From: Planctomycetaceae bacterium
Lineage (GTDB): Bacteria > Planctomycetota > Planctomycetia > Planctomycetales > Planctomycetaceae
NCBI GenBank assembly: GCA_024742875.1
Contig: JANSXP010000011.1
Coordinates: 62,001 to 126,000 of the forward strand
Reading direction: 5' to 3'
DNA length: 64,000 nt
The position numbers and the translations under genes are program-made. Shown piece by piece: positions 4,235 to 38,995 of the stretch (within the stretch, counting starts at the first letter, position 1; each line of letters starts with the position of its first letter). The notes under the pieces are model-generated. The model did not search any database and was not told where the DNA came from. It saw only the letters and a list, made by a program, of their open reading frames with translations.

Positions 4235-4327
4235 GGAAGTGATTGCAGTCTGGTGACTGTCGCGGTCTTCAAAACCGTTGAGGTGCGTTAACCCGTGCCT
4301 GGTGGGTTCGATTCCCATCCACTTCCG
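4235..4327 (+). tRNA. selC: tRNA-Sec (anticodon UCA)
   Basis: The 93-nt sequence folds as a bacterial selenocysteine tRNA. The acceptor GGAAGTG pairs with CACTTCC, followed by discriminator G; the terminal CCA is not encoded. The D-arm has a 6-bp stem (GCAGTC/GACTGT, one G-U) closed by a 4-nt loop, a tRNA-Sec trait. The anticodon loop CTTCAAA places TCA at the anticodon. A long variable arm pairs GGTGCG with CGTGCC, and the T-arm has GGTTCGATTCC. The eighth acceptor pair is an A-C mismatch in my fold, which deserves checking. Its product would decode UGA as selenocysteine with SelA, SelB and SelD, none of which is in the window. The 3' end is the left boundary of the island. Confidence 0.92.
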
Positions 4328-4331
4328 TTTC
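4304..4331 (+). repeat. attL-like direct repeat (3' end of selC)
   Basis: The 28 bases from gggttcg to cttccgtttc span the T-loop and acceptor 3' strand of tRNA-Sec. They match 38968-38995 at 24 of 28 positions, including 17 consecutive identical bases (ccatccacttccgtttc). Integrases of genomic islands commonly use tRNA 3' ends as attachment cores and leave such a direct repeat at the far end. The exact crossover position cannot be read. Confidence 0.82.
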
Positions 4332-4439
4332 CGCTTTTCGGGCGGTCAATGATTTTGCTGACTCCCCAGTATTTTCACTGGACGCTGTGCAGTTTGGTGA
4401 CGCTAAATGTCGCCCGTTTTCTCCGCTTACCGCCGATTG

Positions 4440-4464
4440 CTGCGTAAGAATCCGCGGAGTTTTT
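4440..4464 (+). repeat. Inner 25-bp repeat, left copy
   Basis: The segment beginning ctgcgtaagaatccgcggag recurs at 38896-38920 in the same orientation with 23 of 25 matches. Here it lies about 110 bases inside the left att repeat, within the integrase remnant. It could be an integrase arm-type binding site or a duplicated piece of integrase DNA. Confidence 0.6.
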
Positions 4465-4682
4465 CCGCCCATCGTCGGTTCGCTGGCAGCTGTAAGTCGA
4501 CATGACTCCATCTCCTGAACGCAGTGTTGCTCAGCCACAGCCTCCGTATGACGCATCCATTGGCAGACAGTTCCACGTGGGAACCTTGCATCCAACGTCG
4601 TGTGACGAGTTGACCGCATGTTTCGGAACATTTTCGGGATTGGGTCTACACCAGCTTTGTCTCGAATGACGTAAGCCCGCTT
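4440..4682 (-). pseudogene. Tyrosine recombinase (integrase) C-terminal remnant
   Basis: On the minus strand this reads a fragment resembling the C-terminus of planctomycete phage-type integrases: AGVDPIPKMFRNMRSTR, then ARFPRGTVCQWM, then TEAVAEQHCVQ. In intact relatives the corresponding text is like FQNLRSTR...FPxHVVCxWIGN...AVAxxHYLQ. The tyrosine nucleophile position (HY) reads HC here, codon TGC at 4521-4523, one base from TAC. No N-terminal or core-binding domain is found upstream, so it is a truncated, catalytically dead remnant. Its end points at the tRNA about 110 bases away, the usual position of an island integrase next to attL. The family call is from pattern memory and needs a profile search. 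Confidence 0.68.
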
Positions 4683-4842
4683 CCTGAGATTTGCGTCGCC
4701 CTTCTGCCGCAGATTTGGAAACACAGGGGCTGTTGCAGACAATAATTCATGATTCGCCGTACAAATGCGAGAATGGCCTGTCTGACGAGGATAAGTCTCT
4801 TGACGGCTGAAGCTCGCCCGGCCGGAACGTGATGGGCTCGAA

Positions 4843-5541
4843 TTAGTCGACTTTCCAAACACGCACCGAGTCGAAAACGATCCGACAATTCGCCCCGCCT
4901 TTGAAGGTGAACCTCGGCCCCAATTTGTCCTTTTCGTTGATGATGGTCACCGCGTCGTGTTTGTACGTCTTGCTGTAGTCGTTGACTCCAATGGTGATCT
5001 CACCCTTCCTGTATTCGATGACCAGGTCTATCCAGTCTCCTGGCTTCAGACCTGACTCCGGCTCGGCGAACGACGGACCATCTGGCAGATTGATTCGATG
5101 ACCGCCTCCTTCAAGGTGGTTGAAGAGAATCATGTGGTGGCCAATCTGAAGAACGGGCCTGCCGGGAGCGAGTTTGTCGATTTCGAACCTGAAGCGCGTG
5201 TGGCAGACAAATGCTTCCGGGATTTGATTAAGGTGAATCACCGGTTCGAGTCCAAGGTGATGATCACGCTTCAGCACTTTCATCGCCTCTTCCTTCGATC
5301 TAAACCGTGCCGTTACAACCAGCTTTCCGTCTTTGATCTGCCTGTCGTTCTTCGGAGCTCCCCATCGTTCTCGATTGTATTCCCCGTCAAAGTCGTCCGA
5401 GTAGACGAGTGTCCCCGTTTTGAAGAGCTCAGATTTGAATGAGCTCGGATCGTCGGCCGATGCGATGACCGTGGGAAGAAGAATCGCAGACTTAGTCGCG
5501 AGGCCACGAAAAATATGGGGAAGTGGATTAGGACTCTGCAT
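4843..5541 (-). CDS. Secreted DUF1080/LamG-like beta-sandwich protein
   Basis: A 232-residue protein with a hydrophobic leader (FRGLATKSAILLPTVIASA) suggesting export. The mature part has LVYSDDFDGEYNRERWGAPKNDRQIKDGKLVVTAR, HHMILFNHLEGGGHRINLPDG and GDWIDLVIEYRKGEITIGVND. This order resembles DUF1080 (3-keto-disaccharide hydrolase-like) and other concanavalin-like sandwich proteins that open with 'DDFDG...W' and include 'W..v.ie..g..i...vnG'. It follows the large DUF1592 gene by 33 bases on the same strand and is probably the last gene of the left island operon. It may bind or cleave a sugar; the precise family is uncertain. Confidence 0.75.
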   Translation of the reverse strand: MQSPNPLPHIFRGLATKSAILLPTVIASADDPSSFKSELFKTGTLVYSDDFDGEYNRERWGAPKNDRQIKDGKLVVTARFRSKEEAMKVLKRDHHLGLEPVIHLNQIPEAFVCHTRFRFEIDKLAPGRPVLQIGHHMILFNHLEGGGHRINLPDGPSFAEPESGLKPGDWIDLVIEYRKGEITIGVNDYSKTYKHDAVTIINEKDKLGPRFTFKGGANCRIVFDSVRVWKVD

Positions 5542-5574
5542 GATATTTTTCGCTTCTATTCGTGCGAGAACTGA

Positions 5575-8500
5575 CTATTTCGTCCGAAACGCCCTACTTT
5601 GGGTCAGAGCGTGAATGAACTCGCTGACGGCGAACTCTTTGTTTTCGGCCGATCTAACGATTACGTCTGCGAGCTCTTCGTCGGTGAAACTGAACGGGCG
5701 GCCAAGGGCGTATTCGATCAGGTGTTCGGTGAAGCCGCGGGCGAACTGGTCTTCGCGTTCTGTGATGAGGTCGCGCAATTTGTAGTAATCACCAAACGCT
5801 GGTCCTTTGTGAAATGCTCCGGAGGCGTCGATCATCCAGGTCTTCCGTTTGCCAACGCCTCGGCCTTTCCCGTCTCTCGCCTGGTAACTGTCTTCCGTCC
5901 GCCACTTTCCGGCGGCGTTGAAGTTCTCCAGACCGAAGCCGATGGGGTCGATCCTGCGGTGGCAGCTTGCGCACTGGGCTTCTTCCTGGTGGGCGAGTAG
6001 TCGCTCGCGCGTGGTGAGGATCTGACCTTCGAGACGGGAAATCTGCGGCACATTGGGTGGTGCTGGAGGTGGAGGATCGTTCAACAGGTATCGCAAAACC
6101 CAGGCCCCGCGTTCAACCGGGCTGCTCACGACGCCGTCGCTGCCCATCGCATGGATGGCAGCCATGCCGAGTAGTCCGCCCCGGGGCGATTCGGCGGGCA
6201 GTTTGATTTTGCGGAACTCATCGCCGCTCACACCTTCGATGCCGTAGTAGGTAGCGAGCAGCCCGTTGACAAACACATAGTCGCTCTTCAGGAGTTTTCC
6301 CAGACGACCGTGTGCCGAACCGCGAAGCAGGTGCGCAAAGGATTCGTAAACTTCGCGGCGGCAAGCCGCACGAGTGCTTTCGTCGAAGTCGCGATAGAAC
6401 TTGACATCGAATTGAAAGAAGTCGAGGCGTTCCATATCCAGCCATTGATGAATAAAGCCCGCCACGAATTCGTCTGAACGCTCATCAGCAATCAGTCGGT
6501 TGACCTGCTGCCGAAGCACTTCGGGATGATGCAACTTGTCCTCTGCAGCGAGTTCGAACAGTTTTGCATCCGGTGGACTGCTCCACAGAAAGTAGGAAAG
6601 GCGAACGGCGAGTTCGCGATCATTGAGTTCACGTCGGGCGGCATCGTCACCAGGTTCGAAAAGATAGAGGAATCCTGGCGAAGCCAGTATGACGCTGAGC
6701 GGAGTGCGGATTGCCTCATCGAAAGAGTCGCCAGCTTTGCGGCGTGTTTCGTAGATCGCAACGAGTTGATCGATGAATTCTGCTTCCGGTTTCACTCGTC
6801 GAAAAGCCGCGTTGGCGAAGTCAGTGAGAATCACGCGAGCTTCCTGCCGCCCAGTCGAACCTGAGTTCCCGTCCAGAACCACTTGCAGCGGCGATTGCGT
6901 ATTCGATTTGGGTGCTGAATGTGGTCCTTCGAGTTCCACCCAGTCGATCCAGATGGCGGGCGGGTGGCCGTAGCCGTTCTTCTTTTTCCACTGGTTGTGC
7001 GCATCCCAGAGCGCTTTGAGATTTCCGTTATTGGGCTGCTTTTCCTGAATGGCGAACTCGCGAATCGTGTCCGTCCCAACCTCAAGTGGAATCTCAATCG
7101 TCTCCGGATTTTCGATGCTTCCGCTAACCTGATGAGTGCTGATCGCTGGCCCTTCGAGGCCCCGGTTTCTGGATTCGATCAGGCGTTGTGGATGTCCCAC
7201 CTGAATAAATCGTCGCGCGTCGGGCGTGCCCTCTACTGCTCCCACGCGGACTCGCATGACGTAGTTTCCGGTGGGAAGTTCACCTGGTGAGACGATGACG
7301 CGACCGGTTCCGTGGGCGAGCTTCAGGTAAGCTCCTCGATCACGATGCGGCAGACCGGCGTAGTGTTTGTGATAGGCCAGGTTATTGCGGTCTCCCGGCG
7401 GGTAGGCGGCGGCGGCTTTCTGTGAGTCGCGGAAACCAAAGTCTTTCGGGTCGGGCGTGCCTTCAAGCCGATCGGCAAAACTGTAGAACCACTGTGGATG
7501 CTTGATCTTCTCCTCCGTCTTGCGGATCCTGGCAATCCTGGCCTGGTTCGCAGTGGTTTTGACGGCTTCATCGACGCCCTTTTGCCAGCGAGTGAAGCGA
7601 GCGTAAGCGTCTTCGATCTCCGCGATCTCTTTTTCGTTATCCGGATTGATCGTCTGCTCCGGTTCGACGCGGACGATTTTGGATTCTATCGCCGCGGCCT
7701 CAGTGATCGGACCTTCCAGTTCCATCCAGTCGACCCAGATGGCGGGCGGCGTGCCATACCCGTTCTTCTGCTTGTGGCGATCGAACTCTTGTCTGAGACT
7801 TTTTGCCGACCTGGGCTGGCGTTCCTGAATGCCGACCGCACGCGGGACGCCTGCTCCAAATTCGACCTTGACCTCAATAATCTCCGGGTTCTCCATGGTA
7901 CCGGAGATCGGCTGTGCGCTGAGCAGTTTGGTGAAGCCGGGAGACGACACGTTGAGTTTTTTGGGATGACCAATCTCGATGAAATGTCGGGAAGGATCAG
8001 AGCCTTCCACCACACCGGCTCGGATCCTGAGCTTGTAGGTTCCCGCAGGAACGTCCTTCGGATCAGGGTGAATGTCAAAGCGCTGAACCCCGCGTGAAAG
8101 TTTCAGATAGGCACCCCGATCGTTGTGTGGAAGCTCAGCGTAGTGCTTCAGGTAGTTGTGATATCGCCGATAGGGGCTGTACAAAGCGGCAATCGCATTG
8201 ATGGGATCGCTGCCGCCATAGTCGCGAGGATCAGGTGCTCCCTTCAGAAGATCAGCCTTTCGATACTTGAGCACAGGATCGGAATCAAAGTCCGGATGCT
8301 CCTTACGAAGGGCGGCCACAATTTCTTTGTTTTCCGCCGCTGCTGCCGCCTTGTCGACTTCTTTTTTATAGGGCAGCCATTTCTCCCTGTAGGTGTCATC
8401 CAGTTTCCTGAGGATCTCCCGGTCCTTCACGTTGACCGTGTTTTCCGGCTCGACGCGGAAGACGCGGGACGGCTGATGTGGAGTCGTCTGCCGCTCAAAC

Positions 8501-9054
8501 GCTTCATCTATCGCGCTGCGTCCCAGCTTGAGATATTGCTCAAACTGATCGCTGGAGATGAACTGCGATGATCCAGCGGTGTCAAACGTCCCTGATCCAC
8601 CATCGGCGGGCAGCGTGCCGACGTCAACTTTGACTCCGGTCAGGTGTTCGATGGTGTTGCGGTACTCACGCCGGTTCAGCCGCCGCATCGTGATCTTACC
8701 GCCGGAATCCGACAGCGACTGTCGCGCAGTGACCATTGTCCGCGCAAGATCATCAAGGAAATCTGCCTTCTCGGTGTTGCCAGGCTGCTCAGAATCTTCC
8801 GGCGGCATTTCACCGGAATTCAGTGCGTTGAGGACCTTCTGCCACAGCTCCGCCTCCTCGAAAGTGGTAATGCGAAACGACAGCGTTTCCAGGTCGACCC
8901 TGCCTTCGCGCGTCTCTGAGTCGTGACAATCGAGGCAGTGAGCCTTAAAGAACGCTCGGTGGTTCTCCGGAAACCGTGCTTCACGCGGTGCGGTCTGCGC
9001 GTAGCAGGTGAAGGACGAGAAAAAGAAAAAGGTTGTAAGCAGGAAACGAGGCAT
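5575..9054 (-). CDS. DUF1592-type di-haem planctomycete cytochrome protein with internal duplication
   Basis: A 1159-residue exported protein with signal peptide FLLTTFFFFSSFTCYAQ. Domain order by motifs: PSCyt1 with haem site CLDCH at 40-44; DUF1587 (MRRLNRREYRNTIEHLTGV, about 123-141); two copies of a ~250-residue unit (200-449 and 462-711, each from RVEPE to IW(V/I)DW(M/V)ELEGP); DUF1595 about 725-790; DUF1592 (LSYFLWSSPPDAKLFEL); DUF1588 with a second haem site CASCH at about 1028; and DUF1585 at the end (EYALGRPFSFTDEE). Typical family members are 750-900 residues; the duplication explains the excess. The biochemical role is unknown. It follows its DUF1552 partner by 90 bases. Confidence 0.93.
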   Translation of the reverse strand: MPRFLLTTFFFFSSFTCYAQTAPREARFPENHRAFFKAHCLDCHDSETREGRVDLETLSFRITTFEEAELWQKVLNALNSGEMPPEDSEQPGNTEKADFLDDLARTMVTARQSLSDSGGKITMRRLNRREYRNTIEHLTGVKVDVGTLPADGGSGTFDTAGSSQFISSDQFEQYLKLGRSAIDEAFERQTTPHQPSRVFRVEPENTVNVKDREILRKLDDTYREKWLPYKKEVDKAAAAAENKEIVAALRKEHPDFDSDPVLKYRKADLLKGAPDPRDYGGSDPINAIAALYSPYRRYHNYLKHYAELPHNDRGAYLKLSRGVQRFDIHPDPKDVPAGTYKLRIRAGVVEGSDPSRHFIEIGHPKKLNVSSPGFTKLLSAQPISGTMENPEIIEVKVEFGAGVPRAVGIQERQPRSAKSLRQEFDRHKQKNGYGTPPAIWVDWMELEGPITEAAAIESKIVRVEPEQTINPDNEKEIAEIEDAYARFTRWQKGVDEAVKTTANQARIARIRKTEEKIKHPQWFYSFADRLEGTPDPKDFGFRDSQKAAAAYPPGDRNNLAYHKHYAGLPHRDRGAYLKLAHGTGRVIVSPGELPTGNYVMRVRVGAVEGTPDARRFIQVGHPQRLIESRNRGLEGPAISTHQVSGSIENPETIEIPLEVGTDTIREFAIQEKQPNNGNLKALWDAHNQWKKKNGYGHPPAIWIDWVELEGPHSAPKSNTQSPLQVVLDGNSGSTGRQEARVILTDFANAAFRRVKPEAEFIDQLVAIYETRRKAGDSFDEAIRTPLSVILASPGFLYLFEPGDDAARRELNDRELAVRLSYFLWSSPPDAKLFELAAEDKLHHPEVLRQQVNRLIADERSDEFVAGFIHQWLDMERLDFFQFDVKFYRDFDESTRAACRREVYESFAHLLRGSAHGRLGKLLKSDYVFVNGLLATYYGIEGVSGDEFRKIKLPAESPRGGLLGMAAIHAMGSDGVVSSPVERGAWVLRYLLNDPPPPAPPNVPQISRLEGQILTTRERLLAHQEEAQCASCHRRIDPIGFGLENFNAAGKWRTEDSYQARDGKGRGVGKRKTWMIDASGAFHKGPAFGDYYKLRDLITEREDQFARGFTEHLIEYALGRPFSFTDEELADVIVRSAENKEFAVSEFIHALTQSRAFRTK
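6922..8457 (-). repeat. Internal coding duplication inside the DUF1592 gene
   Basis: Two in-frame units of about 250 codons lie at 7708-8457 and 6922-7671. Shared landmarks are VEPE(N/Q)T(V/I)N, (K/E)G(A/T)PDP, LPH(N/R)DRGAYLKL, the P(A/T)G(T/N)Y..R(I/V)R(A/V)G segment, (I/V)GHP, (Q/E)(R/K)QP and NGYG(T/H)PPAIW. The copies are clearly diverged, so the duplication is old. The unit resembles a carbohydrate-binding-like beta domain but I cannot name it. Confidence 0.85.
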
Positions 9055-9144
9055 GTTGTTATTCCCGGTGATCGTCGTAGCTACGCGAGTCAGAACGTGG
9101 ACCGCAGACTGGCGACGGCGGCCACATCGGACTTCGTCGCAGGG

Positions 9145-10431
9145 TTACGCCTGCAGTTCCTTCACGACGCCTGTGCTGTCGCCGTGTCTTTCGGTGTTGA
9201 TGCCCAGGCCCTGCAGTATCGTCAGCCACACATTGCACAGCGGCGTGTCTTTCGACACGACGAGATGCTGGCCGAGCTTCAGGTTGGCTCCGCCGCCGGT
9301 GAGAATGGTTGGGCAATTGGTCAGGTAGTGGATTGAGCTGATGTTTGATCCGAAGGCCACGGCAGTGTGGTCGAAGAGACTCGATCCGTCGGCTTCCTTC
9401 GTGGCCTTGAGCTTGTCGATCAGACGGGCCAGCAATTCGCTGTGGGTCTTGTCACGCGTCTTCGAAGCCTCCATGCGTTCGCCGGGTGAGTAGTGGCTCA
9501 CATTGTGGGCGCTGGGTTTGAGATCGAGGCTTTGCAGGAGACTCTGACCCGGCATGCGATAGCTCAGCGCGCGAGTGCTGTCCGTCTGCAACGCCGCAAC
9601 GATGAGATCCTGCATGATCTCGATCTCAGCTTTCCCCTTGAGACCGGGCTTCGGTTCGTCAAGAGGAGCCTTCGCCTTTGGGACTTCGAGCCAGGCTTCT
9701 TCCTTTTTGAGGCGCGTTTCGATGTCGCGAATCCCCTGGAAGTATTCGTCGAGCTTGTCCGTGTCAGTTTTTGTCAGACCGCGCTGCACGCGTCTGGCCT
9801 GAGTAAGGACTGCGTCCAGGACGCTGCGGTTTTCGGCGATAGCGACCTGGCGTTGTTCCAGTGGCATGTCATCCGGCGAGAAAAGCTTGTGGAATACCTG
9901 AACAGGGTCGTCCTGCCCAGCGACCGGTTTGCCGCGCTGATCCCATGAGAGCGAAAGACCGGGACCGTGCCCTTCCAGACTGCTGGCGTTGAGCTGGATC
10001 GAGGAGAAGCGAGTGTCCTGCCCGAGATGTTTCGCGACGACCTGGTCAGCCGAGATGCTGTTGGCCATGTTCTGGCCGGGCACGGAATAACGATTGGCGC
10101 CTGTGAGCCAGAAGGTGCTGCCCCAGTGAGCTTCGTTGCTGAACTGGTTCGCGCATCCCTGCACCACGGTGATATCGGACTGGTGGCGGGCCAGCGGAGA
10201 CAGCCCCTCAGAGAGTTCGTATTCGCTGCCGGTACGCTCCTGGTCAGGAAACCAGGTCTCCCTGGTCACGCCGAAGCCAATGCTGAGAAAGACACAGCGC
10301 CTGGGCGGAGCGGCGGGAGTTGTTGAGGCCGCCGAAGCAAACCGACGAACGCCGATCGATTCCAGCGCCGGCAGCGCGATCAGGGCTCCCGTCCCACGTA
10401 GAATGTGACGTCGATTAAGTTGTGTTTTCAT
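9145..10431 (-). CDS. DUF1552 (HXXSHH) family protein
   Basis: A 428-residue protein starting at ATG 10431; the frame is open further upstream but the conserved N-terminus MKTQLNRRHILRGTGALIALPALESIG begins here. This leader resembles a twin-arginine signal (NRRHILRG). The body shows DUF1552 text: CVFLSIGFGVTRETWFPD, GHGPGLSLSWDQRGKPV, LDEYFQGIRDIETRL, LIVAALQTDSTRALSYRMPG, and the signature region AHNVSHYSPG, so the H-x-x-S-H-H motif is H-N-V-S-H-Y. The family function is unknown. It is a close paralogue of the protein at 40064-41356 and is followed by the DUF1592 partner. Confidence 0.93.
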   Translation of the reverse strand: MKTQLNRRHILRGTGALIALPALESIGVRRFASAASTTPAAPPRRCVFLSIGFGVTRETWFPDQERTGSEYELSEGLSPLARHQSDITVVQGCANQFSNEAHWGSTFWLTGANRYSVPGQNMANSISADQVVAKHLGQDTRFSSIQLNASSLEGHGPGLSLSWDQRGKPVAGQDDPVQVFHKLFSPDDMPLEQRQVAIAENRSVLDAVLTQARRVQRGLTKTDTDKLDEYFQGIRDIETRLKKEEAWLEVPKAKAPLDEPKPGLKGKAEIEIMQDLIVAALQTDSTRALSYRMPGQSLLQSLDLKPSAHNVSHYSPGERMEASKTRDKTHSELLARLIDKLKATKEADGSSLFDHTAVAFGSNISSIHYLTNCPTILTGGGANLKLGQHLVVSKDTPLCNVWLTILQGLGINTERHGDSTGVVKELQA

Positions 10432-10697
10432 GGCATGATCTTCCCAAAGGGCGGTGGCAATCAGTTCGCTCAGTCCAGGCGACGGATTCCAAAGCGCCTT
10501 TACATAGCCTCTTTTCTCCCGCTGCCAGCCCACGTCGGATTTAACGCGAAAATCTCATAAAACTGGAGAATTCCTCGCGCCGTCGTTGCCCCTGTTGTTC
10601 GATCGCATTCCTGAACACCGCAACATCAAGACCAGGCGCCGGATAACGTGAGTGAGCGAGTTGGATAGCGTCAATCTTCGCCTTTTTTAATGCACGT

Positions 10698-12113
10698 TTA
10701 CTTCTGAAACTCATCGAACCATGTTTGCACCTTGAGTCCAGGATGCTGATTCTTCGGGATCATCTCGGCCAGCTTCTCCTTTGTGTCTTTGTGCTCTGGC
10801 GTGCTCGCCAGGTTGGTCCATTCGTTGGGGTCGATACGGTGATCGTAAAGCTCTTCACTGCCGTCTTCGTAGCGAATGTAACGCCAGTGTTCGGTGCGGA
10901 TCGAGGTGTTGCCTTCTCCATACGAAGAAATGGCCGGCCCGCGTGGTGTTGATGGATTGGCCAATTGGGGCTTGATGGACGCACCGTCGAGCCCGTTGGG
11001 AACGTCCAGCCCAGCGAGATCAACCAGGGAGGGATACACGTCGATCAGACTCACCGGGCAGGTGCATTCGCTGCCCGCTTTGATTCCCGGACCGCAAACG
11101 ATGAAGGGAATGTGTGTGGTCTGTTCCCAGATGGCGCCTTTGCACCAGTGCTTCTTTTCTCCCAGATGCCAGCCATGGTCACTGACCAGCATGACATAGG
11201 TCTCACGCCCTCGGGGGTTTTGCCTGAGACTCTGCAGAAACCGCCCGATTTGTCGATCGACAAATGCAATCGAGGCATGGTAAGCCTGGATCGTGGAATC
11301 CCATTGATCATTGGCAACGATGTATTCGTGATCACTGAGCCCATTGTGAAGTGATTTGTGGGCATGAGTTCGAGCAAGCCGACGCGCGAATTCGGGTATG
11401 TCGTCCCAGTCGTCCACGCCGTTTGGTTCGGCGGGGCGTTGTATAGACGCAAGCGGAAACTTTTCGAACCAGGGTTTCGGCACGTGCAGCGGACGATGGG
11501 GACGAAAAAAACCAACCGTCATCAGCAGTGGTTTATCGGAGACCGTGTTCCATTGCTCGATTGCCCACTCGGCGACCTTGTAGTCGCTCATCTGTTCGTC
11601 TTTGGCATTAAGAGCGAACCCGTCGCTGGGGGCTCCTTTGGCGTTGAAGTTGTTCTTTCCTTTCGGCGGTTTGGGATCGGCTGGTTTTCTGAACAGCGAA
11701 TCCCCATGTTTGCCTGGCGTACCATGGAACACCTTTCCGCCACTGGCGACACGGTAGCCGCTGCCCATAAAGAATTGCTGCAAAGTCGGCGTTTTGACGT
11801 TCGTCTCTTCGCGGAAGCGTGCGTTGAAATAGGTACCAGTTTTGAACGGGTACACGCCGGTCATCAGACTGGTTCGCGAAGGGCGACATTGCGGTGAATT
11901 GCAATAGCCCTGCGAAAACATCATGCCTTCAGCAGCCAGGGCATCAATGTTTGGCGACTTCGCATCCGGGTGCCCGCCAAGACAGCCAATCCAGTCGTTC
12001 AGATCATCCACGATGATGAAAACGATGTCGGGGCGTTTTTCCTGCGCGAGCGAGCCTTCCTGTAACGCGGTGGATACGATTCCAATCGCAAGAATAAGTT
12101 TGTAGGTATCCAT
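10698..12113 (-). CDS. Secreted sulfatase (iduronate-2-sulfatase-like, S1 family)
   Basis: A 471-residue type I sulfatase with N-terminal export signal. Metal-binding Asp pair at DIVFIIVDDLND (29-40); formylglycine site CRPSR with Cys76 in SPQCRPSRTSLMTG; further active-site text GGKVFHG, FFRPHRPLHVP, LVSDHGWHLGEKKHWCKGAIWE and IRTEHWRYIRYEDGSEELYDH. The pattern HGWHLGE..HW.K resembles iduronate-2-sulfatase and choline-sulfatase-like S1 members. Activity requires oxidation of Cys76 to formylglycine by a sulfatase-modifying enzyme, none of which is in the window. It lies in the left island operon between another sulfatase and DUF1552. The likely substrate is a sulfated polysaccharide, by inference. 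Confidence 0.92.
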   Translation of the reverse strand: MDTYKLILAIGIVSTALQEGSLAQEKRPDIVFIIVDDLNDWIGCLGGHPDAKSPNIDALAAEGMMFSQGYCNSPQCRPSRTSLMTGVYPFKTGTYFNARFREETNVKTPTLQQFFMGSGYRVASGGKVFHGTPGKHGDSLFRKPADPKPPKGKNNFNAKGAPSDGFALNAKDEQMSDYKVAEWAIEQWNTVSDKPLLMTVGFFRPHRPLHVPKPWFEKFPLASIQRPAEPNGVDDWDDIPEFARRLARTHAHKSLHNGLSDHEYIVANDQWDSTIQAYHASIAFVDRQIGRFLQSLRQNPRGRETYVMLVSDHGWHLGEKKHWCKGAIWEQTTHIPFIVCGPGIKAGSECTCPVSLIDVYPSLVDLAGLDVPNGLDGASIKPQLANPSTPRGPAISSYGEGNTSIRTEHWRYIRYEDGSEELYDHRIDPNEWTNLASTPEHKDTKEKLAEMIPKNQHPGLKVQTWFDEFQK

Positions 12114-12164
12114 TCAATGTTCCTGACGATGCCCCGACGCGTCGGGTTTTTCTGGATTCTTCTC

Positions 12165-13607: not shown

Positions 13608-13682
13608 CTCGCACCAGATGCGTTCACGTGGAGGCCAAGGGCCGGAATTTCGCTTCGACCGACTGCGTCTCATTGCAACCGG

Positions 13683-14684: not shown

Positions 14685-14842
14685 GTTCACTGTTTCGGTC
14701 TGCCAATCGGTTGTTTTGCAAAATGCCAGTCTGATTTCAGGATATTGTGAGCAGACTCAGTGACGGTTCATACCGACCGAGAGGCTCACTTCATGCGAAT
14801 CGCCGAAGGTCCCAGCACGGACTGTGTGACGGAGTGGAAGAT

Positions 14843-16426: not shown

Positions 16427-16971
16427 CAGTCACCTCCGGCCAAAGCCAGCGTCATACAACGATGCAGCTCCATTCGAATCCTCGCGAGGAGTTGATACAG
16501 CGAACCTTCCGTTCGCTTCAGCTGCCTCGCCATTTCACGAATGGTCGTGTCCCTGCCATAGGCCGCGAGCGCCAGTTCGCCTCGCTCGCGCGGGAGTTTT
16601 TCAATGCACTGATCCAGCACTTTTAGTTGCCGCTGTCGCAATGGCAACTCCTGTGAGCCTTCTTCAACCAGCAGTTCCAGAACGTCTTCCGCCAGCACAA
16701 GCCGATCTCGCGCAAACCGCCGCCGAGCCGAAAGCAGTTCGTACCGGGCGATCAGACAGGCCCACGGACCGAATGCTGCATGGTCATCAAGCGTCGAGAA
16801 CTTCCGTAGAGCAGCGACGCTGACTTCCTGCATTACGTCGTCCGCCTCCTGAGTCTTCGGGCAGCAGGACCGCACGAAAGCCCGCAATTCGGGTTCATGC
16901 TGCAGCCACAGGCGCAGAAACGCCTCATGCGGATCAACTGGCTCGTCTTTTCGGTCGGATTCGGCTGCCAT
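16426..16971 (-). CDS. ECF sigma factor (planctomycete/verrucomicrobial type), left arm
   Basis: A 181-residue RNA polymerase sigma factor. ATG 16971 is five bases after GAGGAG, better than the ATG at 16974 or GTG at 16977. Region 2 is visible as LRAFVRSCCPKTQEADDVMQEVSVAALRKF and FGPWACLIARYELLSARRRFARD, region 4 as CIEKLPRERGELALAAYG..TTIREMARQLKRTEGSLYQLLARIRMELHRCM. It is cotranscribed with the FecR gene. It probably directs transcription of the left island operon and may autoregulate from the divergent intergenic region. It is homologous in type to the sigma factor at 17129 but clearly diverged from it. Confidence 0.93.
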   Translation of the reverse strand: MAAESDRKDEPVDPHEAFLRLWLQHEPELRAFVRSCCPKTQEADDVMQEVSVAALRKFSTLDDHAAFGPWACLIARYELLSARRRFARDRLVLAEDVLELLVEEGSQELPLRQRQLKVLDQCIEKLPRERGELALAAYGRDTTIREMARQLKRTEGSLYQLLARIRMELHRCMTLALAGGD

Positions 16972-26347: not shown

Positions 26348-26357
26348 AGGACACGAA

Positions 26358-27644: not shown

Positions 27645-27730
27645 CACCGACGTCGCCAGACTTGTGGGCACCCTGATCTGAACGCGAAACACCACCAATC
27701 AGTAAGACACAGACTTTCCCGGACGTGGCT

Positions 27731-30148: not shown

Positions 30149-30193
30149 TGTCTGTCGGAAGCTCTTCCACGAAACAGCAACAAAGACTGCACA

Positions 30194-31719: not shown

Positions 31720-33519
31720 ATGGCAAAACACAGATTACTTAACTTCACATCAGTGATGGCTTTGGTATTGGTCACCCTGGCTGCTGATGCCGCTGAACGG
31801 CCGCCCGCGCCAGATGGCATTGGGCAATTATCGACAGCACCAAAACTCTTCCCGGGCGGAGTCGACGATCAGGGGCGAGCATATTTGCTCAACGGACAGT
31901 CAGCCAGTGGCGGCAAACTGATCCTGACGGCAAGCAATGGATTCTTCGACAACGGAACCTGCCGCGCCCGTGGTGAATCTTCGCTGCCAAAAGCTGGCGA
32001 CGACGATCTCATCAAGCCGAACTTCGCAGTGCTGGACCAGTGGAAACGAACGGATGGCACGCTGCGGTGGCACCTGTGGCTGTCAAAGCCTGGCCAAATC
32101 CACTTCTCGGTCAATATGGGAATTGGAAAAGACGAGGCGGGATCCCAATTGAAGGTCACGTTTGCTGGTGAGACTCGCACGGTGACCACCACGGCATCAA
32201 CGTCAGGCAATCCTCAACCCTGGGATTTGACATTTGATGCAATGAACGCCGGCGAGCACACGATCACTCTGGCCGCCTCCAGCATCAGAAATCCCCGATC
32301 TGGTGTTGGTGAACTGCACACGATCGACGCCTACGGCCCTGCAATCCACGACGCGCAGCTGCTTCGAGCCCGTTGGCGCCCGGCAGCCGTGCATGGTGGG
32401 TACTCCTGTTCGTCGATCGACCAAAGCCGAATGTGGGTCATGACCACGCGAAGCACGACAGACTTCAGCAGCTACTCCCCCATCACCACTCCCTTCGGAT
32501 ACTACGGCACTTCGTTCGATGCGGATCGACGAGCCAGAGGTGGATTCAATTTCTCAATGTGGGCGGCACGGGCCGGAGCAGAAATCCCTCCCGTGGAACA
32601 GATGCCGCATCTTTTGGCCGCTGGATCGCCGGAAGCAGAATTCAGCGGATTCGGCCACGAGGGCTCCGGCGTCAAGTTGCGAGGCTGGACCCCCATGCCC
32701 GACCGACCGAAGGTCTGTGTACAGGCTCTGCGTGTCGAAACCGAGGGGAGCTACGACACATATAGCGGCTATTTCTGGGACCATCCCGGCAAAGGCTGGA
32801 AACTGTACGCCGTCGGTCGCAAATGGAATGGTGGTGAGACGCGAACGCACCTTTCCCCCGGATCATTCTGCGAAGTGCCGGGACCACCTCACGTCCAGCG
32901 GTCAGGCGACATGGTTCGGGAAATTCGCCGCAGAGGGTGGCAATACAGCGACGGTCAGTGGCACGCGATGGATACCTTCCAGTGTAAATCAAAGGGCCCC
33001 GCGAATAAGTTCTGGCACACCACCCGCGACGGTGAATTCGCCATGAGCACAGGGGGAATGCGGTTTTACAACTTCGAAAAGCCATCGAGCCCCTCGACAC
33101 CGACACCGTCACCGGAGTTTCTTTCCCCTGCTGCCACTCGCCAGCTTTTTCAGCGACCCGCTGATATCAGCCGCATAGAAACGACCGAAGCCGGAATGAC
33201 GAATGCCACCATCAACATTTTCATGGCTCGCGCCGGAACGAACGGGCGAGCCACAATCTACTATGGTGAATCAGACTGCCTGACGTTTGCAAAACGAAAA
33301 CTCCACGGCACCGAGCAACGATCGAAGGTCAGCCAATCGACACAGGCCGACGGCCGCTCATGGTCCCACAGTGCTTCGTTGAATTCCCTCAATGACGGCA
33401 ATAACCTTTTCACCCTAACCGGTTTAAAATCGGGAACGCCCTATTACTACCGAGTGCTGGTGATCAACGACCACGGGCAGACCTGGGCATCCCAGACAAA
33501 CAGCTTTCAAACTCGATGA
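31720..33519 (+). CDS. DUF5077/DUF3472 secreted protein with fibronectin-III-like end
   Basis: A 599-residue exported protein with leader LLNFTSVMALVLVTLAADA. Residues about 60-200 (WHLWLSKPGQIHFSVNMGIGKDEAGSQ) match a DUF5077-like ligand-binding sandwich. A DUF3472-like part follows (GGYSCSSIDQSRMWVMTT, FGYYGTSFD, GGFNFSMWAA, YDTYSGYFWDHPGKGWKLYAVGRKW). The last ~90 residues (DGNNLFTLTGLKSGTPYYYRVLVINDHGQ) read like a fibronectin type III domain. DUF3472 proteins are often found near polysaccharide-degradation genes. Its stop overlaps a possible early start of the next gene by four bases. The domain names are from memory and should be checked by profile. Confidence 0.82.
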   Translation: MAKHRLLNFTSVMALVLVTLAADAAERPPAPDGIGQLSTAPKLFPGGVDDQGRAYLLNGQSASGGKLILTASNGFFDNGTCRARGESSLPKAGDDDLIKPNFAVLDQWKRTDGTLRWHLWLSKPGQIHFSVNMGIGKDEAGSQLKVTFAGETRTVTTTASTSGNPQPWDLTFDAMNAGEHTITLAASSIRNPRSGVGELHTIDAYGPAIHDAQLLRARWRPAAVHGGYSCSSIDQSRMWVMTTRSTTDFSSYSPITTPFGYYGTSFDADRRARGGFNFSMWAARAGAEIPPVEQMPHLLAAGSPEAEFSGFGHEGSGVKLRGWTPMPDRPKVCVQALRVETEGSYDTYSGYFWDHPGKGWKLYAVGRKWNGGETRTHLSPGSFCEVPGPPHVQRSGDMVREIRRRGWQYSDGQWHAMDTFQCKSKGPANKFWHTTRDGEFAMSTGGMRFYNFEKPSSPSTPTPSPEFLSPAATRQLFQRPADISRIETTEAGMTNATINIFMARAGTNGRATIYYGESDCLTFAKRKLHGTEQRSKVSQSTQADGRSWSHSASLNSLNDGNNLFTLTGLKSGTPYYYRVLVINDHGQTWASQTNSFQTR

Positions 33520-33548
33520 TTCTTTGCACTTTAGAACGTTGTGCTGAC

Positions 33549-35438
33549 ATGTTGCCCCGAACCGTCGCATTTGTCGTTTTTCTAACGACCGCCACTGCTG
33601 TTGCACAGCCGCGCTGGAGCGATCTGTATGAGCCGCGGGTGTTTAACGACATGCCGGTTCGCGTGATGAAGCCATTTGGCTTTGACGGCACTGAAAAGTA
33701 TCCGGTCATCGTTTCGCTGCATGGTGCTGGTGGCAAAGGGACAAACAACCAGAAGCAATTGAAGGACTGGAATCGGCAACTTGCCGAGCCTCAGCGCAGA
33801 AAGAACTTCCCCTGTTATGTCGTGGCACCGCAGGTTCCGGAATTATGGGATGCCCAGGACCTGGAAAGCATTCAGGCTCTAATCAGGACGCTGCCATCGG
33901 TCGACATGAACCGCATCTACGTCATGGGACATTCGATGGGCGGTCACGGCACATACATCTTCATTCAGCTCGCTCCGGACTACTTCGCCGCCGCAGCACC
34001 GTCGGCAGGAAGCGGGCTCAAACGCACCCGCCCCTTTGTCGATCCCGCCAAATTCAAAGACCTGCCGATCTGGGCGTTTCATGGAGATCGTGACGGAGTT
34101 TGCCCTGTCGAAAAGGACGTGAAGATCTTCGAAGGCATGAAGCAACTTGGCGGCAACATGAAGTTCACAATCTGGAAGGGGGACAATCACGGAGTCTCAG
34201 GAAAGATGATTCCAGGTGCGGACAACGGCACGACGCAGTTCAGCGGCAGTCGATGTGATCCCGAACCTGATTTCATGACGTGGTTGTTTTCTCAAGCCAG
34301 AAAGAACGACCAGCCTTCAAAGCAGACATCAGCGTGGACGAAGCACGTTGTTGTCGCCAAAGCAGGCAGCATGATTAACTCTGCCGTTGCCAGTGACTTC
34401 GACGGCGACGGTATGATCGACGTCCTGTCATCATACGACGGGCGTGTCACCCTGCTGAAAGGACCTTCCTGGAAACCTCACACACTGCACATCTTCGATC
34501 CAAACAACTCCCGCAACAAACCGCGAACGAGCTGCATTCACAGTTGCCTGATGGATGTGGACAATGATGGCGACCTCGACTTCTGCGGCTCCAACAACAC
34601 GGTTTTCTGGCTTGAGTGCCCTGACGATCCGTTCTCCGGCAAACCGTGGACATACCGCACGATCGATGATCAGATCCTTGGCACCCATTGCCTGATCACC
34701 GGCGACGTTGATGGAGACGGACGAGTCGACCTGATTGCCAATTCCGGCCGGCCGCCGGAGACAACCGCCATTCCGTATTCACTCACCTGGCTTTCGGTCC
34801 CCACAAGTGTTCACTCCGTTGCGAGCTGGCCTCGACACGTTTTTGCAGACCGGGATGCTCCAGGTGGCTCGCATTACACCAGCATCGGCGACATCAACAA
34901 TGACGGTCGTGCGGACATCGCGTGCGCCGCGAAAGGGGGTGAAGGCTTCCCCGACGGCGAATGGTTTGCGTGGTGGGAACAGCCTGAAAATGCCACAGCC
35001 CCCTGGACGAAACACGTTCTTGCCGACAACCAGTCAGGTGCAACCAACATCCACTCTGTCCATGTGGATCAGGATCAGCACATCGATTTTGTCGCCACGC
35101 GAGGACATGGCAGTGGCGTTCTTTGGTTCCAAGGTCCGGAATTCCACGCCATCGAAATCGACCCTGACATTGCCGGTCCGCATTGTCTGGCGACTGTGGA
35201 TCTGGACGGTGACGGCGACATTGATATTGCCACGTGCGGTCGAGACAGCACCGGCACCGCCGTCTGGTATGAGAACTCAGGAACCGGCAGCTTTACCAGA
35301 CATCTCGTCGGCGTTTACCAGGGAGCCTATGATATTCGCGCCACTGACATGGACGGCGACAGAGATCTCGACCTTCTGATCGCAGGCCATGGGAACAACA
35401 ATATCGTCTGGTACGAGAATCGAATTCACGCGAATTAG
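33549..35438 (+). CDS. Esterase-FG-GAP/VCBS repeat fusion protein
   Basis: A 629-residue protein. ATG 33549 gives a clean signal peptide (MLPRTVAFVVFLTTATAVAQ); an ATG at 33516 overlapping the previous stop adds 11 residues. Residues 20-255 form an alpha/beta hydrolase of the phospholipase/carboxylesterase or CE1-like kind: VSLHGAGGKG (oxyanion region), nucleophile Ser129 in GHSMGG, Asp in FHGDRDGVCP, His in KGDNHGVSG. Residues ~265-629 hold FG-GAP/VCBS-like repeats with Asp-rich loops (DFDGDGMID, DVDNDGDLD, DVDGDGRVD, DINNDGRAD, DLDGDGDID, DMDGDRDLD) likely binding calcium in a beta-propeller. The fusion suggests a surface- or glycan-targeted esterase, perhaps removing acyl groups from polysaccharide; that is inference. 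Confidence 0.9.
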   Translation: MLPRTVAFVVFLTTATAVAQPRWSDLYEPRVFNDMPVRVMKPFGFDGTEKYPVIVSLHGAGGKGTNNQKQLKDWNRQLAEPQRRKNFPCYVVAPQVPELWDAQDLESIQALIRTLPSVDMNRIYVMGHSMGGHGTYIFIQLAPDYFAAAAPSAGSGLKRTRPFVDPAKFKDLPIWAFHGDRDGVCPVEKDVKIFEGMKQLGGNMKFTIWKGDNHGVSGKMIPGADNGTTQFSGSRCDPEPDFMTWLFSQARKNDQPSKQTSAWTKHVVVAKAGSMINSAVASDFDGDGMIDVLSSYDGRVTLLKGPSWKPHTLHIFDPNNSRNKPRTSCIHSCLMDVDNDGDLDFCGSNNTVFWLECPDDPFSGKPWTYRTIDDQILGTHCLITGDVDGDGRVDLIANSGRPPETTAIPYSLTWLSVPTSVHSVASWPRHVFADRDAPGGSHYTSIGDINNDGRADIACAAKGGEGFPDGEWFAWWEQPENATAPWTKHVLADNQSGATNIHSVHVDQDQHIDFVATRGHGSGVLWFQGPEFHAIEIDPDIAGPHCLATVDLDGDGDIDIATCGRDSTGTAVWYENSGTGSFTRHLVGVYQGAYDIRATDMDGDRDLDLLIAGHGNNNIVWYENRIHAN

Positions 35439-35771
35439 CGATTGCGTCGTGCCATTCCGGCGCCCTTACCGCATCAACCGATAAACCAGTGATGTTGCGT
35501 GAGATTGGGTTGTGGCCTGTCCGCGAACGCATCGAAGTGGACAGTGGATGAGCCGCGTTACTGTCGGTATCAGGACATCATTTCCATGATGGCCATGATC
35601 TGATTCACGGTCTTACGATGATATCGCTATCCTAAGGGTCAGGCTCGTCCTGTTCAAACCAACTCTTTGGTTCTGCCGGGCCAATCTTCAGACACGCTGG
35701 TCTCTGGCTGTCAGCTGTTGAAATTCAAGTCGCGGCAATGATTCGTTAGTCAGAGGCAGCTGGAGAACACA
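35439..35771. other. Intergenic region, no gene seen
   Basis: 333 bases between the esterase fusion and the SASA/beta-lactamase fusion. An antisense open frame crosses the first 90 bases but lacks convincing start or similarity. The only recognisable element is GGAG about 8 bases before the next ATG. Confidence 0.5.
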
Positions 35772-38495
35772 ATGTTGAACATCCATTCTTTAAGAGCGAA
35801 CCGACCAGCATCGCCGATCAGGTTTCTGATCCTTCTGACGTTGTGGTTAACACCTTCTGTGGCTAAGGCGGATGTTGGACTTCCCACAATCTTTTCCAGC
35901 AATATGGTGCTTCAACGGGAGTTGGCGGTGCCTGTTTGGGGGACTGCTGACCCGGGCGAAGACGTCACAGTGAGGTTTGCAGGGCAGTCCAAACAGACCA
36001 CAGCAGATGCAGATGGAAAGTGGATGGTGCGGCTGGATCCACTGGCAACTTCCCACAGGAAACAGACTCTGCTTGTCGAAGGAAAGAATCGGCTGGAACT
36101 TTCCGGTGTACTGGTCGGCGAAGTCTGGCTGTGCAGCGGGCAGTCGAACATGGCCGATTCGTTCAGCTCCAGCAAGAATCGATTCATCGAACCAGAGTAT
36201 TTCGAGAAGGGTCTGGCTCAAATGCGAGTCTCCACTCGGCACGGCTGGACGGGCATCGACGAAAAAACGCAGCGGTCAGTCTCTCGCGTTGGATTCTACT
36301 TTGGCGAAAAACTGTACCGAGAACTGCAGGTCCCGATCGGTTTGATCCTGCGATACAACTCCGGGACACCGATCCAGGCATGGATCCCGAAAGACGATTC
36401 GGAGATCATTCGAAAACGACTTGGCATCCCCGAAGGCTGGAATGATATTCAGGAGAATCGAAATCCAGGGGTTCAGTTCGCCGACAAAATTGAACCGATC
36501 ATTCCCGTTTGTTTTCGGGGAGTGATTTGGTACCAGGGTGAGCGGAATGCCAAAACGCAGACAGGCCATGAATATCGCCATCTGCTGCCCTTTATGATCG
36601 ACAATTGGCGCCAGCTGTTCGCACGTCGTGCCGGAGTGCCCGTACGAAAGTTCCCTTTTTACTACGTTCAGGTTCCCACTCAGGATGCCACCGGAGAATG
36701 GCCGTGGCTGCGAGACGCTATGCGTCGCGCGCTGGCGACCACCCAGAACACCGGAATGGCCGTCTTTTATGACCACGGCCCCAGCCTGCATCCTCATGAC
36801 AAGCGTTATGCCGGAGAACGGCTGGCTCTTTGGGCACTTGCGAAAGACTACGGCAGATCGAAGCTGGAATATTCGGGGCCGTTGTTGAAGAGCGTCGAAT
36901 TCCGCGGCAATACGGCGCGACTTTTCTTCGACCATGTCGCAGGGGGACTCAGGAACCCTGCCGGCGATGAGACAAGCCTGGACTTTTTTGAAATCGCCGG
37001 TGAAGACGCAAAGTACGTTACAGCGAACGCAAAGATCGTCGGCGACCAGGTTCATGTGACCAGTCCCAGCATCGCCAACCCGAAATTCGTGCGATATCTG
37101 TTCCGCAAAGAACAACCTGACCCGGCCATCAGTCTTGTGAATTCAGCCGGGCTGCCCGCGTCGAGTTTCATGACGGATGACTTCAAACCACCGCGGGAAC
37201 CAATCACTCAGCGGCCACCAAACAGACAACTGACCGAAGCGGAAATGGCGGCACGCAAAGCGGATCGAATCGCAAGGCGAGAAGCTCGGAACGCCCCTGC
37301 CACCACAAAGGAGTTACCCGGAAAGCCATCGTCAGGCAAAGCCATGAAAACACAGGACGCTGCTTTGCCTGCGGAAGCAGATGGACCTGCGCCGGAAGTT
37401 GTGGATTTGTCTTCTGAAGATATTTCCTACGCCAAAGAGCAGCATCTTCCCGATCTCGAACGACCATTCCTCGATGCGACTCCGGAGGACATGGCGGACG
37501 GAATCGAGGTTGGCGAACTTGGCACCGATAGCGGTGACAGGGAGATGATCGTGGCATTCGCTCGAGAAATCGCCGCTGGTAAGCACGGAGATGTCGACAG
37601 CCTGTTGATTCATCACGACGGCCGATTGATTTTTGAATCGTACTTTCGCCGCGGGCGAGCCAACTATCCTCACTACCAAATGTCGATCACAAAATCCTAC
37701 ACGGCGATGGCGCTGGGCCGCGCCATTCAACTTGGCCGTTTGAAGATGTCCGACCTGAATCGACCTGTGCTCGACTTTCTGAAGGACATCGACCGAAGCA
37801 ATCTCGCCACTGGCAGCCACACGATCACTTTGAACGACGCCTTGAACATGCACTCGGGGATTCGCGTCGACAAAGCAACTGTCGCGAACCTTCGAAAATC
37901 GGCGAGCACGTTGAAGGGACAGGGACAGATTCAGGCGTACCTTGAATACACGGCTCCGATCACGAAAGAGTCCAGACAATACAAGTATCAGTCATCTGAC
38001 CCGTCGATCGTGATGCAGGTGATTGAATCCGTCGTGCCGGGATCAGCGCGTGAATTCATCCAGAAAGAACTGCTCAAGCCAATGGGAATTTCCAATTTTG
38101 GCTGGCAGGATGACGTGAGCGGTCTGCCGAAATCAGCTGCTGGCAGCAGCATGAGATCTCGCGACATGATCAAGTGGGGGATGCTGGTACAGAACCGCGG
38201 CGAGTGGGACGGCGAGCGATTGATCCCGGCCGAGTTCGTACAGCGGGCGACTTCCAGAATCCACACAAATCCGCAGGACACGTCATACGGCTACTTTTGG
38301 TGGCGTCATGATGTCGAAGTGCAGGGAAAGACGTACGACCTAAAATCAGGCCGCGGTGCTGGTGGCCAATTTATCATGATGATTGACGAATTGGATCTGA
38401 TTATGGCCGTCACATCTCACAACAAAGGAATGGGCAACATGCTGAATACTGCCCCACAGCGGGTCATTCCTGCGATGCTTTCCACGGCTCCCTGA
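35772..38495 (+). CDS. Sialate O-acetylesterase (SASA)-beta-lactamase/serine hydrolase fusion
   Basis: A 907-residue exported protein with GGAG before ATG 35772. The first half is a SASA-type SGNH esterase: PTIFSSNMVLQRELAVPVWGTADPGE, nucleophile Ser125 in VWLCSGQSNM, GLILRYNSGTPIQAWIP, GVIWYQGERNA and HPHDKRYAGERLALWALAK. A basic linker follows near 480-530 (ARKADRIARREARNA). The second half is a class C beta-lactamase-related serine hydrolase with S-I-T-K (Ser638, Lys641), ALNMHSGIRVD, YKYQSSDPSIV (Tyr-x-Ser/Asn-like) and YGYFWWRHD. Both halves look catalytically complete. The pair could remove two kinds of ester from a decorated polysaccharide; substrate unknown. Last gene of the island's right arm, about 470 bases from attR. 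Confidence 0.92.
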   Translation: MLNIHSLRANRPASPIRFLILLTLWLTPSVAKADVGLPTIFSSNMVLQRELAVPVWGTADPGEDVTVRFAGQSKQTTADADGKWMVRLDPLATSHRKQTLLVEGKNRLELSGVLVGEVWLCSGQSNMADSFSSSKNRFIEPEYFEKGLAQMRVSTRHGWTGIDEKTQRSVSRVGFYFGEKLYRELQVPIGLILRYNSGTPIQAWIPKDDSEIIRKRLGIPEGWNDIQENRNPGVQFADKIEPIIPVCFRGVIWYQGERNAKTQTGHEYRHLLPFMIDNWRQLFARRAGVPVRKFPFYYVQVPTQDATGEWPWLRDAMRRALATTQNTGMAVFYDHGPSLHPHDKRYAGERLALWALAKDYGRSKLEYSGPLLKSVEFRGNTARLFFDHVAGGLRNPAGDETSLDFFEIAGEDAKYVTANAKIVGDQVHVTSPSIANPKFVRYLFRKEQPDPAISLVNSAGLPASSFMTDDFKPPREPITQRPPNRQLTEAEMAARKADRIARREARNAPATTKELPGKPSSGKAMKTQDAALPAEADGPAPEVVDLSSEDISYAKEQHLPDLERPFLDATPEDMADGIEVGELGTDSGDREMIVAFAREIAAGKHGDVDSLLIHHDGRLIFESYFRRGRANYPHYQMSITKSYTAMALGRAIQLGRLKMSDLNRPVLDFLKDIDRSNLATGSHTITLNDALNMHSGIRVDKATVANLRKSASTLKGQGQIQAYLEYTAPITKESRQYKYQSSDPSIVMQVIESVVPGSAREFIQKELLKPMGISNFGWQDDVSGLPKSAAGSSMRSRDMIKWGMLVQNRGEWDGERLIPAEFVQRATSRIHTNPQDTSYGYFWWRHDVEVQGKTYDLKSGRGAGGQFIMMIDELDLIMAVTSHNKGMGNMLNTAPQRVIPAMLSTAP

Positions 38496-38967
38496 TCGGG
38501 CGCCTCACCAGCGGAACCGCCGCAACGCCATTCGGTTCGCAGCCATTCGGAATCGTGAACGTGTGCGAAACGAGTGTCACGGTCTCTGCTACCCCCGCCG
38601 GCAGGACTCAAAGTACGAAAAAGCGATTAACCCGATTTCAGTCTGTAATCGTTTCGTATTGTAAGCTGTTTCTCTTGAGGAGTTTTCGACATGACTGCCT
38701 GCCCTCAAATTCGTTCTGCGCTGCTGCGAACCTCTGCCTTTGCGACGCAGTCGGCTGGCACGCTCAGCGCGAGCCTCAGAGAGTCGATCGCATCAAGCAG
38801 TTCGATGGGCAACCTGGCCACATCACGGGCTGACTGATCAACCGACCGGATCAGTTGCCAGGCTGCATGTACCACCAGATCACGATTCCCGACGTCTGCG
38901 TAAGAATCTGCGGAGTTCTTCTGTTCCGTTTCGGGCTCACCAATAACAACACTCGCGAAACGGACGG
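38496..38967. other. Right end of island, mostly non-coding
   Basis: No confident gene. A 48-codon frame at 38691-38837 (MTACPQIRSALLRTSAFATQ...) has gaggag 8 bases upstream of its ATG but no recognisable similarity. The opposite strand has an open frame ending at 38705 that reads through the att repeat and the 25-bp repeat. It may contain decayed mobile-element sequence. Confidence 0.45.
38896..38920 (+). repeat. Inner 25-bp repeat, right copy
   Basis: This segment, beginning ctgcgtaagaatctgcggag, matches 4440-4464 at 23 of 25 bases in the same orientation. It lies about 48 bases inside the right att repeat. Presence just inside both ends of the island fits an integrase arm-type site or a duplicated integrase-gene scrap. 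Confidence 0.6.
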
Positions 38968-38995
38968 GGGTTCGGAAGCCATCCACTTCCGTTTC
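38968..38995 (+). repeat. attR-like direct repeat of the selC 3' end
   Basis: Reads gggttcg, four mismatched bases, then ccatccacttccgtttc, the last 17 bases being identical to 4315-4331. The matching part covers the 3' half of tRNA-Sec (T-stem remnant and acceptor strand) plus four bases beyond the tRNA. No other tRNA parts are present, so it is not a second tRNA gene. It defines the right boundary of the proposed ~34.7-kb island. Confidence 0.82.

Follow-up and report, generated by a model that had tools for sequence, protein, structure and literature searches.

The 64,000-nucleotide stretch analysed here (the window) comes from a Planctomycetaceae bacterium (assembly GCA_024742875.1, contig JANSXP010000011.1, positions 62,001–126,000) and contains the selenocysteine tRNA gene selC. 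We propose, with a probability of roughly 0.85, that the segment 4304–38995 (34.7 kb between attachment repeats) constitutes the remains of an element that a tyrosine integrase once inserted into selC at its 3′ end and that has since decayed into a tRNA gene (tDNA) island resembling a cis-mobilizable element (CIME). This is a known kind of element, and its cargo is ordinary for the genus. An initial annotation had described a genomic island at selC; the integrase-type insertion with both ends kept was upheld by the distal tRNA fragment, the decayed integrase and a pair of inner repeats, whereas the view of the whole 34.7 kb as one foreign island was not supported.

The integration target, selC (anticodon TCA), was located by ARAGORN at 4235–4327 on the plus strand and matched the Rfam tRNA-Sec family RF01852 at 4235–4326 with 77.8 bits. 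The left attachment repeat copy (attL, 4304–4331, plus strand) takes in the 3′ end of selC, and the right copy (attR, 38968–38995, plus strand) is a displaced selC 3′ fragment. When re-read in the sequence the repeat proved to be as first annotated, with 24 of 28 positions equal and 17 of them in an unbroken run, which forms an identical core at 4315–4331 and 38979–38995. The layout is hence that of a tDNA island: one end has an intact tRNA gene and the other a 3′ fragment of that tRNA, oriented alike. A search for the 17-bp core throughout the own genome (8,183,757 bases, or 8.18 Mb, in 168 contigs), a check suggested by the initial annotation, returned two exact occurrences, both inside the window, and a third place with 2 mismatches, which speaks against a dispersed repeat. 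As a control, 300 stretches of 60 bases were drawn at random from the window; their longest exact matches elsewhere in it measured 9 to 16 bases, short of 17 in every case.

Just inside the left copy, and overlapping the 3′ part of selC, an open frame on the minus strand (4269–4862) encodes what is left of the C-terminal part of a tyrosine integrase. The frame has no Pfam match of its own at E 0.001. In tblastn comparisons with integrases lying beside selC in congeners it showed 49% (G003) and 48% (G005) identity over 96 aa, corresponding to residues 286–381 of the G003 integrase and leaving the first ∼285 residues of its relatives unmatched, and a profile of five intact integrases matched the window at 4311–4712 with an E-value of 1.4e-21. 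Moreover, it clustered with the G003 and G005 integrases, at a support of 97, in an 82-row FastTree phylogeny where the remnant row fills 34% of the columns. The intact relatives in these two genomes, each an open gene of 435 codons with the integrase SAM-like domain, converge with selC; together with a partial integrase in G001 they occupy the same position and orientation beside selC as the remnant does. The tyrosine-recombinase remnant noticed by the initial annotation was thus confirmed by congener relatives, alignment and profile match. A His-Tyr pair invariant in the five intact integrases reads His-Cys in the alignment of the remnant, the catalytic tyrosine having been replaced by cysteine. 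In place of the intact integrase gene expected within a tDNA island there is only this C-terminal remnant, and since the integrase has lost most of its coding sequence as well as its catalytic tyrosine, the element would no longer be able to move itself. The integrase frames L113:11512–12825, L108:7221–8573 and L099:1946–3247, like that of the window at 4269–4862, extend into the tRNA gene, so that their last residues derive from the tRNA 3′ end read in antisense.

Integrases of this family recur beside selC. A tRNA-Sec search of 58 genomes yielded 30 loci, of which 29 with at least 62 bits were used (L051 of G044, with 49.9 bits, was left out). Eight of the 29 loci contain a family integrase beside selC and convergent with it, five of them full length (G003, G005, G013, G050 and G052) and three partial (the window, G001 and G016); the downstream stretch examined was ∼1.5 kb for 26 loci, the remaining three offering 117, 492 and 572 bases. 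With 8 of the 29 loci examined occupied in this way, insertion at selC appears to recur in Planctomycetota. Ten genomes were searched for distal copies of the selC 3′ end, the search space in G013, G003, G005, G002 and G007 being only 0.6–5.8 kb. Two elements with full-length integrases displayed such copies: in G052 an 88-base repeat with 86 identical bases lies 42,676 bases off, and in G050 a repeat of 26 exact bases lies 32,090 bases off. The repeats of the window, G052 and G050 share their starting position in the T-arm to within one base. Of these elements, that of G052 is a prophage, with an S24 repressor, a terminase and a Mu-type portal, and that of G050 contains a DUF3987 gene, type I restriction genes and an ImpB-type gene. 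In G003, a TIR-domain protein (L086:125–715; weak ThsB_TIR match) adjoins the intact selC-side integrase and is possibly encoded by a defence gene.

With the five intact integrases as queries, 122 loci were found in genome contigs, and 80 of them were kept (G003, G005, G013 and G050 reappear among the 80). The corresponding records are nearly all named Planctomycetota or subgroups thereof, the exceptions being one Bacteroidales and two labelled ‘bacterium’. A tRNA gene was present within 300 bases of the integrase 3′ end in 64 of the 80 loci, convergent every time, and the remaining loci either had no tRNA (13) or lay at a contig edge (3). The 64 targets belong to 13 isotypes (Leu 10, Val 9, Glu 8, Sec 7, Asn 6, Ser 6, Arg 4, Gln 4, Met 3, Ala 2, Lys 2, Phe 2 and Ile 1). 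Isotype labels change 38 times on the tree, compared with a shuffled mean of 48.7, and none of 200 shuffles was as low; tRNA targets in this family switch frequently, yet non-randomly. Other members in the own genome are C33, beside tRNA-Ala, C35, beside tRNA-Arg and with two internal stops, and C140. The family was also found in 54 viral-contig loci, and the G003 integrase used as query gave no match in phage or plasmid collections.

Comparison of both inner ends of the segment revealed a second direct repeat of 26 bp, absent from the initial annotation, with 24 of 26 positions identical. Its left copy (4440–4465, plus strand) lies 112 bp past the tRNA end, within the frame of the integrase remnant, and its right copy (38896–38921, plus strand) 46 bp before the distal repeat; both are putative integrase arm sites. 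The first 22 bases of the repeat, allowing up to 3 mismatches, occur at two places in the own genome, namely both ends of the segment, and at one place (2 mismatches) across seven congeners, and a reversed-pattern control found zero places. The inner-end repeat scores exceeded the maxima of their nulls in the window (21 vs 17), G052 (16.0 vs 15.5) and G050 (20.5 vs 16.5), each of these three nulls comprising at most 200 random pairs, as well as at tRNA-Leu (18 vs 15) and tRNA-Asn (13 vs 12) of G004. Left distance and right gap are also similar across all six elements compared: 112/46 in the window, 113/40 in G052 and 134/39 in G050 at selC, 113/46 at the tRNA-Ala of the own genome, and 111/48 and 95/54 at tRNA-Leu and tRNA-Asn of G004. 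As judged from sequence and spacing, the inner repeats may act as arm sites of the integrase. A family motif was found up to 350 bases from the tRNA in 42 of 64 loci, compared with 4 of 64 in a control stretch, having been picked post hoc, after viewing G052 and G050, and with G050 among the 64 loci. This repeated attachment-site layout offers a handle for locating island ends in Planctomycetota, even when the integrase has decayed.

These data also bear on one alternative, namely that the distal and inner repeats are due to chance or dispersed sequence and that there is no island. The core consists of only 17 identical bases, 4 of the 28 positions differ, and genes of the same kind stand on both sides of the right boundary, features that would fit such an explanation. 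However, both repeats are restricted to these places in the genome, no random stretch in the control above attained 17 identical bases, and the layout is like that of other family elements; we regard this alternative as highly improbable.

Several other observations weigh against an insertion at selC. Neither an empty site nor a relative with the same insertion was found in the congeners examined. The genes flanking selC in the window have only distant paralogs beside selC in six congeners, some of them covered briefly downstream, and as the window shares its selC neighbourhood with none of the congeners fetched, no empty site could be defined. Distal selC repeats of at least 12 exact bases were absent from the 35 kb searched in G001 and the 79 kb searched in G004. 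As for the inner repeats, the score of 11 obtained at the own tRNA-Ala element only equals the 95% level of its null, a statistically weak result, and two other pairings at the same tRNA gene (C33b and C33c) show nothing in the expected place; furthermore, the inner repeat of the window falls outside the family motif at 2 mismatches, and the loci of the nearest intact integrases, G003 and G005, contain neither the motif nor the window repeat. On their element side, the 80 family loci show no cargo-like gene over the span examined (median 4.4 kb, below 1 kb in 18 of the 80), sulfatase-like matches appearing at three of the 80, all past the tRNA. Finally, the GC content of the interval is 56.6–57.1%, compared with 58.2–61.5% around it, and its tetranucleotides are not distinct.

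A compositional comparison with the flanks had been suggested by the initial annotation, and the interval came out near its flanks and not foreign. Composition as a test of foreignness was set aside as uninformative, its baseline of 22 own-genome loci being biased to integrase neighbourhoods. All seven congeners gave matches to the 14 kb that precede the window on its left, lying far from selC in the single-contig genome G004, and the right flank (49.8–64 kb) has only short matches in the seven congeners, of at most 605 bases and fewer than those of the island cargo. The genes in 49800–64000 include a kinase-TPR gene, an open reading frame (ORF) of 1553 aa with a weak VWA match and a CarboxypepD_reg ORF.

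The cargo spans ∼33.7 kb and is laid out in two divergent arms about two pairs of extracytoplasmic function (ECF) sigma factor and FecR genes, as determined by scanning the 21 ORFs of the interval with Pfam. On the minus strand, the left arm begins with a block at 4843–10533 encoding a 232-aa protein without Pfam match, a PSCyt/PSD (DUF1592-type) protein and a DUF1552 protein, with a counterpart block on contig C63 of G003. It continues with two sulfatases (10698–13673), the second of which lacks the C-x-P-x-R motif in its first 200 residues, an ORF without Pfam match (13683–14690), and a FecR-domain protein with an ECF-type sigma factor (14843–16977). On the plus strand, a divergent second ECF-type sigma factor and FecR-domain protein (17129–19011) are followed by two sulfatases (19015–22397) with counterparts in G003 and G006, a DUF1552-DUF1592-DUF1552-DUF1592-sulfatase series (22446–31528) found in the same order in congeners away from selC, and a last group (31720–38495) composed of a DUF3472 protein, a hydrolase-like and FG-GAP protein, and a SASA esterase and beta-lactamase-type protein of 907 aa. 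Altogether there are five sulfatases, four of them with C-x-P-x-R, three DUF1552 and three PSCyt/PSD (DUF1592-type) proteins and two ECF sigma/FecR pairs, besides one DUF3472, one hydrolase-like/FG-GAP and one SASA/beta-lactamase-type protein.

Among these 21 ORFs we found no phage structural, primase or transfer genes, and the interval was rejected as a prophage for its lack of phage structural genes. Likewise, none of the 21 matched glycoside hydrolase, lyase or transporter families. A polysaccharide utilisation locus was discarded, as five sulfatases and one SASA esterase domain occur here with no glycoside hydrolase, lyase or transporter, and the polysaccharide-degradation-like island of the initial annotation was not supported, for want of glycoside hydrolases and transporters in the ORFs scanned. 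Its coherent sulfatase/DUF1552/DUF1592 cargo held in part: such genes are present, but they do not set the interval apart, since sulfatase, DUF1552 and DUF1592-type genes also occur to the right of the boundary, at 40064–49768. Sulfatase content was equally dismissed as an island marker, the own genome having 153 sulfatase matches (150 of 213 candidates scored), with more of them to the right of the boundary. In that region, a DUF1552/DUF1592 module at 40064–45806 looks interrupted: a second DUF1552-DUF1592 pair stands between a truncated DUF1592-type ORF (44832–45806) and its DUF1552 partner, and in contig C244 of G007 the two parts of the module adjoin. A 45-base inverted repeat at 39818–39862, 98% identical to its own reverse complement, is possibly a terminator.

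Another arrangement of this type occurs in the same genome. At C33 (L315:57–14941), a tRNA-Ala gene is followed by a 7.6-kb element with an integrase and a Prim-Pol gene, after which a copy of the last 15 tRNA-Ala bases plus 113 further bases appears. A second segment of 7.1 kb, which lacks a family integrase and contains genes for a kinase-WD40 protein and an ECF sigma factor, leads to a third repeat copy that shares just the last 4 tRNA bases and 75 downstream bases. An arm-like repeat lies 114 bases into this second segment, which has no convincing right inner repeat. The tRNA-Ala array resembles the arrangement at selC, though its right end is weaker.

Counterparts of the cargo were traced in congeners, the part 4862–19009 being compared only with the loci fetched, chiefly those of G003. 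In the latter genome, counterparts with 66–85% DNA identity are scattered over 10.3–74.1 kb of the 137-kb contig C63, which has no tRNA gene and no family integrase. Left-arm blocks keep the orientation of the window and right-arm blocks are inverted, so that on C63 all counterpart blocks lie on one strand. G001 and G002 keep the order FecR-DUF1552-DUF1592-DUF1552-DUF1592-sulfatase, G005 and G007 cover it in part, and G006 holds other cargo parts with 69–84% protein identity; none of the cargo stretches fetched from these five genomes contains a tRNA gene. The last cargo gene has an 83% counterpart in G003, one of the seven congeners, and elsewhere reaches at most ∼45% among the matches listed. 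Because the counterparts form two kinds of congener cluster, the window cluster looks like a merger of both.

This distribution could suggest that the integrase brought a small or phage-like element which decayed to its ends, the sulfatase/PSCyt clusters entering later by ordinary recombination between chromosomal loci. In addition to the counterparts at other congener loci (C63 of G003, the operon of G001 and G002, parts in G005, G006 and G007) and the merged look of the cluster, three other family elements with a distal repeat, from the own genome and G004, are 7.2–9.0 kb long, and cargo-like genes were lacking in the limited element-side stretch of the 80 family loci. Nevertheless, the 21 ORFs scanned include no phage or primase fragments by the integrase remnant, and the cargo fits neatly between the ends, with C63 homology starting 9 bases from the first left gene's stop codon. 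We give such a later entry close to an even chance. Alternatively, the cargo might have integrated together with the element, as a selC island moving a whole sulfatase cluster, perhaps between species of the genus. Its place between two matched ends, the restriction of a close counterpart of its last gene to G003 and the integrase-less segment with chromosomal-type genes between tRNA-Ala repeat copies in the same genome would be in keeping with this; the congener counterparts on stretches without tRNA genes and a composition that is not foreign are not, and we lean somewhat against joint integration.

The scenario that we favour, a decayed element inserted into selC, would then have developed as follows. 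A tyrosine integrase of a family widespread in Planctomycetota would have inserted the element into the selC 3′ end, and a crossover within the shared 17-bp core, as the two copies suggest, would have restored a full selC at the left and moved the original 3′ end to the right. Subsequent decay of the integrase would have immobilised the element, with survival of both presumed cis-acting ends, attL and attR, each with its inner repeat. Between these ends now lie the ∼33.7 kb of sulfatase, PSCyt/PSD and DUF1552 clusters of the genus type, which may have arrived with the element or entered later. Full-length selC-side integrases exist in congeners and are potential movers in cis; it is conceivable, though unlikely, that the segment is a still-mobilisable CIME, from which an incoming intact selC integrase could excise and carry the 34-kb sulfatase/PSCyt cluster. 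If that were true, chromosomal gene clusters in Planctomycetota might spread when trapped between the ends of tRNA-targeting elements, a trapping also suggested by the integrase-less tRNA-Ala segment of the same genome. The findings at selC make it testable whether sulfatase/PSCyt clusters, numerous in this genome, spread on such elements.

In enterobacteria selC is a known integration hotspot. The islands found there share with the window the same target tRNA and the same 3′ footprint, and differ from it in phylum and cargo. In the literature searched, which left subscription sources largely aside, there was no account of selC islands or of this integrase family in Planctomycetota. Islands in Porphyra-associated Planctomycetes were called by composition or codon usage, according to the accessible part of that study (PMC4807772), and the consulted portion of a Rhodopirellula expression paper lists a DUF1552 gene as stress-regulated and does not use the word ‘island’ (PMC2754498). 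Sulfatase genes of freshwater Verrucomicrobia are often close to PSCyt-domain genes (PMC5615132, available sections); unlike the segment described here, those PSCyt/PSD-sulfatase sets are presented there as gene neighbourhoods and not as tRNA-flanked segments.

Two described classes of element are also close to the selC segment. In the sections consulted of the Islander work on tDNA islands (PMC4383910), in whose text ‘planctomycet’ is absent, candidates without an integrase open reading frame are rejected and lengths range from 2 to 200 kb. By these sections, the segment is unlike Islander islands in that its integrase is a broken remnant, and like them in its full tRNA and same-orientation 3′ fragment, in the tyrosine integrase sequence beside the tRNA and in a length within 2–200 kb. 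A CIME, as defined in the accessible part of PMC5704250, keeps attL and attR and has lost its integration and transfer genes. The window differs from that description in its metabolic cargo and in having no identified parent among integrative and conjugative or integrative and mobilizable elements; it would agree with it in the apparent retention of attL and attR, as core and inner repeat pairs, together with a broken integrase and no transfer gene among the 21 ORFs.

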